From positions 3,534,001 through 3,598,000 of the forward strand of contig NZ_CP030034.1 in the NCBI RefSeq assembly GCF_006874625.1: 64,000 nucleotides of DNA, read 5' to 3'. The DNA is from Bdellovibrio sp. NC01 (GTDB lineage: Bacteria; Bdellovibrionota; Bdellovibrionia; Bdellovibrionales; Bdellovibrionaceae). The notes below the pieces were generated by a model. It was not told where the DNA came from. It did not search any database and saw only the letters and a program-made list of their open reading frames with translations. The translations under genes were made by a program, and so were the position numbers. Shown here piece by piece: positions 18,542 to 20,440 of this stretch (its first letter is position 1; each line of letters opens with the position of its first letter).

Positions 18542-19036
18542 ATGAGCGATGTATCTTTGAAAGCAAAACCAGGTCAGTATCTAACTTTCCAATTGATGTC
18601 TGAACAATATGGTGTCGCTATTGAAACAGTTCGTGAGATCAATCAATTTGGTGAGATCACTCCTGTTCCGCGCACGCCAGACTACGTAAAAGGTGTTATG
18701 AATCTTCGCGGTAAGATCATCCCTGTAGTAAATCTTCGCATTAAATTTGGTATGGATTCGCAAGACACAACTCGCGACACATGCATCATCGTGATCGACA
18801 CTGAAATCGGTCAAGTAGGCATGATCGTAGACTCTGTGAAAGAGGTTGTTGATCTTCAAGAATCACAAATCGAACCTTCACCAGTACTAGGCAACGAAAA
18901 CGCAATGTCGTTCGTTCGTGGTATGGGTAAAGTTGATAACAAAGTTGTTATCCTTGTGGATATCGTTTCTGCTTTCTCGGCAGATCAAATGGGCGCAATG
19001 GCTCATTTCTCTCACGACGAAGCAAAAGCGGCTTAA
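18542..19036 (+). CDS. cheW: Chemotaxis adaptor protein CheW
   Basis: 164 residues from ATG 18542 (AAAGG upstream); an in-frame ATG at 18506 would add 12 residues. Single CheW domain linking receptors to CheA: YLTFQLMSEQYGVAIETVREI, with PRTPDYVKGVMNLRGKIIPV and VGMIVDSVKEVV as family landmarks. Written here as separate short stretches; the domain fills the protein apart from about 15 residues at the N terminus. Transcribed away from cheA and ended by a strong hairpin terminator. Confidence 0.94.
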   Translation: MSDVSLKAKPGQYLTFQLMSEQYGVAIETVREINQFGEITPVPRTPDYVKGVMNLRGKIIPVVNLRIKFGMDSQDTTRDTCIIVIDTEIGQVGMIVDSVKEVVDLQESQIEPSPVLGNENAMSFVRGMGKVDNKVVILVDIVSAFSADQMGAMAHFSHDEAKAA

Positions 19037-19061
19037 TCTCGCTCCTTTCTTTCGTTTTCTT

Positions 19062-19100
19062 AAAGGCGTTTGGTTTGTTCCAAGCGCCTTTTCTTTTTTT
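19062..19100 (+). terminator. cheW terminator
   Basis: 12-bp stem (19062-19073 with 19080-19091, one G-T pair, loop TTTGTT) followed by TTCTTTTTTT. Confidence 0.9.
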
Positions 19101-19138
19101 GGATTCAGTTTACTAAGAATGATCTCGGTAGTGCGGGG

Positions 19139-19286
19139 ATTTGCGGCAAGATCCGTAAGGCTTCTGCTTCTTCGGCACGCCTTCCGGGCTCGGTCGTGGC
19201 CCACGAGCCTTTGGCTCGCGGGTGCGCGCCATCGTGGCGCCCACGAAGGCCTCATACGCAGAAGCCTTACGGACCTTTCCGCAAAT
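19139..19286. repeat. Large nested GC-rich palindromic element
   Basis: Two 29-base arms (19139-19167 and 19258-19286) are inverted copies with two mismatches. The 90 bases between them are GC-rich and contain further palindromes: CGAGCC-TTT-GGCTCG (19204-19218), GCGCCA-TCG-TGGCGC (19226-19240), and GTGG-C-CCAC (19196-19204). No credible ORF crosses it. It sits between a terminator and a convergent gene end, as expected for a dispersed palindromic repeat or a structured RNA. Composition is clearly richer in GC than the flanks. Confidence 0.85.
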
Positions 19287-19326
19287 TTTGCCTTCGAGTT
19301 TATTTATTGAACTGATTTCAAATTAG

Positions 19327-19356
19327 AAAATGCGATGGAAGGACCATCGCTTTTTG
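19327..19356. terminator. Probable bidirectional terminator
   Basis: Stem GCGATGG/CCATCGC (19332-19338 with 19344-19350, loop AAGGA) with AAAA before and TTTTT after. Two more hairpins follow: ATGGAG/CTCCAT near 19364-19383 and CCGCCAC/GTGGCGG (19405-19411 with 19428-19434), downstream of the minus-strand gene ending at 19457. Confidence 0.7.
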
Positions 19357-19456
19357 AAACTTAGATGGAGTGTTTTAGCTCCATTTGGATTCGTGAGATA
19401 AATACCGCCACGACGTTTTGGGGTTTGGTGGCGGAACTTCATTGGATTTCTTTTTT

Positions 19457-20440
19457 TTATTTTGAGTTTTGGGCTGTTGTTGTTAGGGCTTTGGGGTCGA
19501 TGAAGCTTTCTTGGCTTTCTTTTAGTTTATATCTTCTGCTTACCATTGAGAATATGTTGTCGGCTGCTACTCCTATTGGTTCGCCGTTGTAGTTTTTTGT
19601 TAGGCCTGCCACTAGCGTTGGGTCTACTCCTGAGTTTTTACCTAGACCGTTTTTTGGGTTTTTTCCTGTGTTTGCCAGTCCTGTATTGTCTTCTTCAGAG
19701 CTTGCTATGGCTCTGTTGTTGCTACCGCTGCCTTCTTCATAGCCGTTTTCTGCTGTGGCGTTAGCTTTTACTTTTTCTAGTTTTGCTAGGGCTTTCTTTT
19801 CTAAGTCGTTACTTAAGGCCATTGCGGAATCGATTGTGCTTTGGGGGATGCCTGCGTCTGCCATTGATGATGTCGAAGCTAAGTCTGATGATGAATACGT
19901 TTTATCGCCCACTGTGAATGAACCGGTTTTTGGATTGTAAACTCCGCTGGCTTCTAAGGCTTTTAATGTCGAGCCCACGGCTTGATAGTTTGGGTCTGCT
20001 AAAGCCGCTGCGACTGTCGCATCTGTCGTGCCACTTGTCCCCGTGCTGCTTAACGAACCATAGCCGTCCGTTTGAAAACCTGTTGTGTCGGCGCTGCTTG
20101 CTGCGGCTCCATGATCAGACCCTTGCGCTATGTTTGTTAGACCCATGCTGACCATCAACACTCCCATCGCAACCTCGCCATAGTTGTGGCTGGCGCTTCC
20201 GGTTTTAATCATCACGCCACCCATCACGACTTCGGCTCCGCCTGTGACATAGTTCACTGCTTGCGCCAAACCATTGCCGCTACTTGATTGATTTGCTGAA
20301 TCCGTTACTGCAGGAGTCGTCGATGTTGTCGTTGTTCCATTTTCAACACCGTCACTGCCTGAATTTGAAGAAGTCGTGGTCGCCAGAGCTGTCGACACCA
20401 TGAGGCCTACCATTCCGAATACAAATGCTTTTTTCTTCAT
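19457..20440 (-). CDS. Secreted Ser/Thr-rich protein with glycine-rich hydrophobic repeats, unknown
   Basis: 327 residues with a signal peptide (to about ATALA-20), then a Ser/Thr/Asn-rich stretch. A hydrophobic region at about 58-105 holds two similar units (GGAEVVMGGVMIKTG and GEVAMGVLMVSMGL) that look like glycine-zipper membrane hairpins. The rest is polar. It lies 11 bases after the larger secreted gene on the same strand, so the two form an operon. The last third uses many A-ending codons (ATA, AGA, CTA, GGA, GTA) unlike neighbouring genes. I do not recognise a family; an envelope or surface role is inferred. Confidence 0.75.
   Translation of the reverse strand: MKKKAFVFGMVGLMVSTALATTTSSNSGSDGVENGTTTTSTTPAVTDSANQSSSGNGLAQAVNYVTGGAEVVMGGVMIKTGSASHNYGEVAMGVLMVSMGLTNIAQGSDHGAAASSADTTGFQTDGYGSLSSTGTSGTTDATVAAALADPNYQAVGSTLKALEASGVYNPKTGSFTVGDKTYSSSDLASTSSMADAGIPQSTIDSAMALSNDLEKKALAKLEKVKANATAENGYEEGSGSNNRAIASSEEDNTGLANTGKNPKNGLGKNSGVDPTLVAGLTKNYNGEPIGVAADNIFSMVSRRYKLKESQESFIDPKALTTTAQNSK

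Follow-up and report, generated by a model that had tools for sequence, protein, structure and literature searches.

A dispersed palindromic element of Bdellovibrio with a conserved hairpin head and copy-specific, self-complementary arms

We analyzed a window of 64,000 nucleotides from Bdellovibrio sp. NC01 (contig NZ_CP030034.1, positions 3,534,001 to 3,598,000 of the forward strand), whose genome is a single contig of 3.98 Mb; positions below are those of the window. Between cheW (PF01584) on the left and, on the right, a convergent gene with no match in Pfam lies a long nested palindrome, which an earlier note on this sequence had described as 29-base arms with two mismatches around a structured center at 19139-19286. 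A DNA search showed the palindrome to be genuine, with arms at 19139-19167 and 19258-19286 matching at 93%, and a repeat finder lengthened them to 38 nt at 84%. The RNA fold of 19139-19286 was predicted at -85.9 kcal/mol, compared to -54.3 +/- 4.0 kcal/mol for 200 dinucleotide shuffles (z of -7.9), none of which was as low. The palindrome therefore stood, but the extent of 148 bases did not: comparison with other copies gave a slightly longer unit of ~19125-19297 (Table 1). The terminators of both neighboring genes stand outside this unit, and one of them, that of cheW, is the separate upstream terminator to which the note had pointed. The whole had also been judged too long for a simple terminator; in agreement, a terminator scan returned the neighboring terminators and a partial inner stem, not the entire element. 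In the same scan the GC stem followed by a T run expected of an intrinsic terminator was absent, the right box being GCAAATTTTGCC, without a T tract.

Table 1. Features of the element and of the adjacent terminators, in window coordinates.
Feature	Position	Strand	Observation
Whole element, box to box	19125..19297	+	Extent common to other copies (query 9-178 of 19120-19300)
Left outer box, TCGGTAGTGCGGGGATTTGC	19125..19144	+	At left edge in most of 21 own-genome copies
Left variable arm	19145..19167	+	Pairs with 19258-19280; sequence varies among copies
Conserved head, closed by P2 (19174-19176 with 19249-19251)	19174..19251	+	P2 100% paired, with double changes in 2/3 pairs
Hairpin Pa, tip TTCCG (other strand GGA)	19179..19189	+	97.9% of cells paired; tip-region TCC in 122/129 copies
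Helix P3 (19195-19199 with 19241-19245)	19195..19245	+	100% paired; double change in window copy and L002
Hairpin P4, variable sequence, pairing kept	19200..19222	+	Both-side changes in 4/6 pairs
Hairpin P5, tip ATCGT	19226..19240	+	98.9% of cells paired, nearly invariant
Right variable arm	19258..19280	+	Complementary to left arm
Right outer box, GCAAATTTTGCCTTCGA	19281..19297	+	At right edge in most of 21 own-genome copies
cheW intrinsic terminator, outside element	19062..19091	+	Terminator scan
Bidirectional terminator, downstream of element	19332..19350	both strands	Terminator scan

The palindrome is one of many. From 16 heads of type A we derived a covariance model, R1, which found 26 copies in the NC01 genome (E ≤ 1), with E values from 1.7e-25 to 1.2e-4; a DNA search of the same genome gave 35 matches at E ≤ 10, of which about 21 were whole copies by inspection. 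Across the genus, 22 of 24 genomes carried 2 to 30 R1 matches each at E ≤ 0.001, and genomes G003 and G004 carried none. The search for further copies and the covariance modeling across relatives that the earlier note had proposed thus bore out one of its suggestions, a dispersed palindromic element, and the possibility it had named beforehand as refuting, a single-copy and unconserved oddity, is ruled out by the 26 copies and their sharing throughout the genus. In a plain DNA search, matches came from 20 of 59 relatives (NC01 counted), all Bdellovibrio. A phylum-wide survey of 290 genomes at E ≤ 1e-4 yielded 25 with matches, 20 of them Bdellovibrio (again counting NC01) and five from outside the genus (G035, G277, G291, G270, and G175); these five gave weaker matches and have the same plan, their arms being variable and the enclosed heads tipped with CATCC-type sequences. 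The exact type-A head had no match outside the genus, in a genome collection apparently without Bdellovibrio records. No phage match to 18900-19400 was found, and the motif pattern was absent from viral contigs, leaving a phage or viral origin unsupported. In the literature that we searched, available mostly without full text, the repeat is not described in Bdellovibrio.

Each copy consists of two conserved outer boxes, a self-pairing arm of ~23 bp whose sequence is specific to the copy, and a conserved multi-hairpin head. The outer boxes are recurrent and asymmetric and are not full complements of one another, with GGGG on the left opposite TTTT on the right in many own-genome copies. The freedom of the arms is seen at loci L001 and L002, where the heads are near-identical and the arms very different, each arm being complementary to its own partner. 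Several competing hairpins had been anticipated within the center; covariation over 16 copies confirmed the hairpins and favored a single arrangement (P2, Pa, P3, P4, and P5), in which 93.5% of cells are paired and two-sided changes are found in 15 of 30 pairs. The covariation score of this arrangement was reached by none of 500 shuffles, and slid controls paired at 30 to 49%. For counts over the family we kept 129 distinct elements from 145 model matches among the matches listed, after removal of same-place duplicates; these are a subset of the genus-wide copies. The Pa tip bears a minus-strand GGA (TCC on the plus strand) in 122 of the 129. At the tip of P5, RTCG, which holds no GGA, occurs in 89 copies and RTCC in 46, and one copy can match both searches. 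Five own-genome copies carry a second type of head, B.

With neighboring genes called by a custom hexamer caller rather than taken from annotation, the copies were found mainly to adjoin gene 3' ends. The left neighbor was a sense gene for 88 of the 129 elements and an antisense gene for 34. Where both neighbors were called (n = 110), 53 copies lay between convergent genes and only 3 between divergent ones, with 27 each in the (+,+) and (-,-) orientations. A stop codon fell within 65 nt of the head model for 50 of 88 left sense genes, compared to 3 of 82 right antisense genes. This asymmetry orients the element, and neutral insertion need not show such an orientation. Inverted pairs of copies a few hundred bases apart also occur, and one such paired locus recurs in several species. 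Near two copies we noted c-di-GMP-I and TPP riboswitches (L077:1787-1867 and L080:2237-2335).

One copy lies within a published transcript. The accessible part of PMC3627812 lists APsRNA6 of strain HD100 as an attack-phase RNA at 1,338,787-1,339,441 on the plus strand, with a FliA promoter. Genome G005 has a c-di-GMP-I riboswitch at 1,073,868-1,073,951 on the minus strand, which falls within the merRNA published for HD100, and the coordinates of HD100 and G005 therefore agree. By the coordinates given there, one HD100 copy (head at 1,339,149-1,339,247, plus strand) is inside APsRNA6, behind a 92-amino-acid open reading frame of the same transcript and strand, and the RNA extends beyond the element, ending at 1,339,441 while the head ends at 1,339,247. 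The overlap involves 1 of 13 HD100 copies and 1 of the 8 RNAs listed, and it may be a coincidence, because copies and RNAs are both intergenic. The reading frame itself (L160:914-1192, about 1338813-1339091 in G005) has membrane-like stretches, a plausible ribosome site, and no Pfam match; from these sequence features, the published "sRNA" may be a message.

By comparison of flanks, many copies are orthologous between species, and others have been gained, lost, or gutted. The site occupied by L130 is empty in genome G020. Two copies at the APsRNA6 locus differ among genomes. The one on the plus strand is intact in G005, but its inner head has been lost in G002 and G023, in a different way in each; the second, inverted one is intact in those two genomes and gutted in G005. 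The inner-head deletion of that inverted copy in G005 (L160:1517-1592) falls between two similar hairpin tips. Between orthologues, the head is usually better conserved than the flanks, and in some pairs the arms change faster than the flanks. We considered whether arms form anew from the target upon insertion and rejected this, because recent paralogues, such as L081 and L083, have common arms. Import of arms from other known copies was likewise unsupported, the best non-orthologue arm matches being mostly weak.

The manner in which the arms change was followed in 23 orthologue pairs whose two flanks are each at least 84% identical; some of these pairs share a species. Among stem columns, both sides had changed in 57 and one side in 46, and 604 were unchanged; a further 65 were mismatched in both orthologues, and symmetry is therefore not always restored. 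The two-sided changes were bursty, with 53 of the 57 in six orthologue pairs, although these pairs, having species in common, are not independent. In one pair, L143 and L124, there were 14 double and 3 single changes between flanks that are 98.7% and 94.2% identical. The double changes comprised 30 transversions and 27 transitions, so at least half did not pass through G.U, and 15 of 35 runs spanned two or more columns. A burst could alternatively be a short tract imported from another strain.

On the plus strand, the inner arms of the 129 copies (127 distinct heads) contained 2,674 Watson-Crick pairs, 70 A.C, 22 G.T, and 156 other mismatches; with one copy per orthologue cluster (80 copies), G.T numbered 13 and A.C 46. 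No tRNAs were found in the window, and terminators at the same loci were used as the pairing control: they gave 25 G.T, 5 A.C, and 7 others, while other hairpins gave 138 G.T and 152 A.C. Since G.T is rarer than A.C in the arms, the opposite of the terminators, the plus strand is unlike a folded RNA. Such an asymmetry (22:70) is not expected from pure DNA symmetry and hints at a folded minus strand. The bias of the minus strand is RNA-like but weak, and the arm symmetry looks for the most part DNA-made; as a whole, the pattern is a better match to template switching in DNA than to stepwise compensation in RNA. As far as the available part of PMC8794818 goes, template switching yields paired changes on the two sides of hairpins in RNA genes, and in rRNA 61% of instantaneous double changes are of the transition type. 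The simultaneous paired changes on both stem sides are shared with the Bdellovibrio arms, which differ in having transitions in 27 of 57 double changes and in outpacing their flanks in some pairs.

Several known classes of repeat invite comparison. REPs and REPINs are dispersed, non-genic palindromes found near gene ends, non-autonomous and limited to a lineage, that are mobilized by a RAYT; a REP is 20 to 40 bp long and bears a GTAG or CGTC tag. ERIC/IRU elements of enterobacteria are imperfect intergenic palindromes of more than 100 bp, with no known enzyme of their own, whose sequence is generally kept over the full length. The Bdellovibrio element is like an ERIC/IRU in being a long intergenic palindrome without its own enzyme and unlike it in that only boxes and head are conserved. 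With the REPs (described in PMC3733652) and REPINs (in PMC3116915, to the extent available) it shares a dispersed, non-genic, non-autonomous, and lineage-limited existence near gene ends, but it measures about 173 bp and its arms differ between copies. A RAYT partner was not supported, the distributions being mismatched: the Y1 transposase domain PF01797 is missing from element carriers G007, G012, and G016 (12, 15, and 6 copies) and is present in both G003 and G004, which lack the element. PF01797 was most frequent in G011 (10 matches) and G022 (12), with 0 to 6 in the other genus genomes searched. At L059:1250-1360 (G000:C1, about 1181161-1181271), a long nested palindrome of different sequence adjoins a Y1 (PF01797) transposase gene and is possibly a separate REP-like element.

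Rfam offered no plausible match to a known RNA family at the window. The nearest likeness in anatomy is to the TwoAYGGAY motif (RF01731), whose model combines a long outer stem with two hairpins that are tipped by GGA. The external stem is long and poorly conserved in the description available from PMC4333381, a trait found here too in the variable, self-complementary arms. The two are further alike in having GGA-tipped hairpins (CATCC on the element's strand), in being dispersed, and in occurring as multiple copies at some loci; the element differs by an extra helix (P3), an extra hairpin (P4), and usual tips of CCGGAY and CGAY. AYGGAY occupied both terminal loops in 0 of 129 copies and, read strictly, Pa in 3 and P5 in 10. 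The RF01731 model (gathering cutoff, 43 bits) gave no match at E ≤ 10 in window positions 18900-19600, nor at E ≤ 5 in 18 copy-bearing loci. Scanning for GCCATCCATGGCTC followed by CATCCATG within 15 to 45 bases returned at least 119 stretches from many phyla, where by our own estimate chance would give about one under even base use; some, such as one from Bacteroidaceae, look like chance occurrences in coding DNA. Of ten such loci tested, five score as RF01731, in six places in total, and the places that cover the scanned motif lie on the strand opposite to the element's pattern. Tandem or repeated CATCCATG hairpins were seen in Shewanella, Dokdonella, and gammaproteobacterial bins (L269, L258, L309, and others). 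R1 matched G175 at E 4.6e-5, with tips GCCATCCATGGC, where RF01731 gives no score; it matched a nested palindrome of Shewanella at an E of only 0.09 and reached no TwoAYGGAY-type locus with significance. A demonstration of kinship through covariance models therefore failed in both directions, with R1 and with RF01731, and it is by resemblance, rather than as a proven member, that the element may be regarded as a TwoAYGGAY variant read on the opposite strand.

Given these observations of dispersal, conserved heads, variable self-complementary arms, vertical inheritance with gain and loss, and a preference for gene 3' ends, we favor a dispersed palindromic element that is non-coding, non-autonomous, and found genus-wide, with a REP-like life style and a TwoAYGGAY-like anatomy, and would put the probability of this reading at roughly 0.6. 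A single strand would fold as a long rod, formed by boxes and variable arms, that bears the multi-hairpin head. The head would be retained because it is read by contact with a protein or RNA, while the arms would need only to pair. Their symmetry may be kept mainly by template switching between the arms during replication, copying a change in one into the other. New copies would arise in trans through a putative enzyme, and insertions would be tolerated mostly behind stop codons and terminators. No mobilizing enzyme gene was tied to the copies and no target duplication was established for them, which counts against this reading. For the protein-binding or recombination site that the earlier note had also suggested, no partner protein was found.

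An alternative is a functional structured RNA, another suggestion of the earlier note: the GGAY-tipped minus strand might be transcribed and bound by CsrA or a similar protein, serving as a sponge or marking the 3' ends of messages, with arms that covary for folding. We think this rather unlikely, although the covariation of the head over 16 copies, the minus-strand GGA at nearly every Pa tip, and the more frequent G.U of the inner arms when read on the minus strand (70, against 22 on the plus strand; per cluster, 46 against 13) all argue for it. CsrA, to which TwoAYGGAY has been proposed to bind (PMC4333381, from the part available), is encoded by 24 of 24 genomes, but these include G003 and G004, which are without the element. 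The predominance of RTCG at the P5 tip also speaks against such a role, as does the finding that non-wobble mismatches exceed G.U on the minus strand as well (156 to 70), unlike in terminators, and the sole known transcript that spans a copy reads the plus strand.

The element might also belong to the plus-strand 3'-untranslated region of the gene just upstream and protect or terminate its message, in the manner of a very large REP or terminator. The frequent stop codon close to the head (50 of 88 copies with a left sense gene) and the HD100 copy that follows the 92-amino-acid frame on the same strand within APsRNA6 are consistent with this. We nevertheless hold it to be improbable: a gene on the opposite strand precedes 34 of 122 copies, the (+,+) and (-,-) orientations are equally frequent at 27, and the APsRNA6 transcript, as published in the accessible source, continues past the element. 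The right box without a T tract, the neighbors' own terminators outside the element in the window, and the rarity of plus-strand G.T relative to A.C argue in the same direction. Least credible, and in our judgment very improbable, is a recombination or transposition end in single-stranded DNA, belonging to an HUH (RAYT-type) or integrase system that recognizes folded DNA by its shape. A shape conserved while arm sequence is free, asymmetric outer boxes, and the gain, loss, and internal deletion of copies would all suit such an end, but the PF01797 distribution does not match and no enzyme gene was found alongside the copies.

The dispersed palindromic element offers a marker of genome change across the whole Bdellovibrio genus, and one of its copies lies within an attack-phase transcript. 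Elements of similar style recur across many phyla under the Rfam entry RF01731, whose function is not established. We speculate, tentatively, that these and the Bdellovibrio element form one bacteria-wide class of selfish palindromic DNA, in which the head is recognized and the arms are rewritten coordinately by replication template switching. If so, such motifs would have been catalogued as RNA on the strength of covariation that arises mainly in DNA. Covariation is the usual proof of RNA structure; here, with few plus-strand G.U pairs, bursts of two-sided change, and many transversions, it may be DNA-made, and the element lends itself to testing, in nature, the extent to which template switching can mimic RNA compensation.
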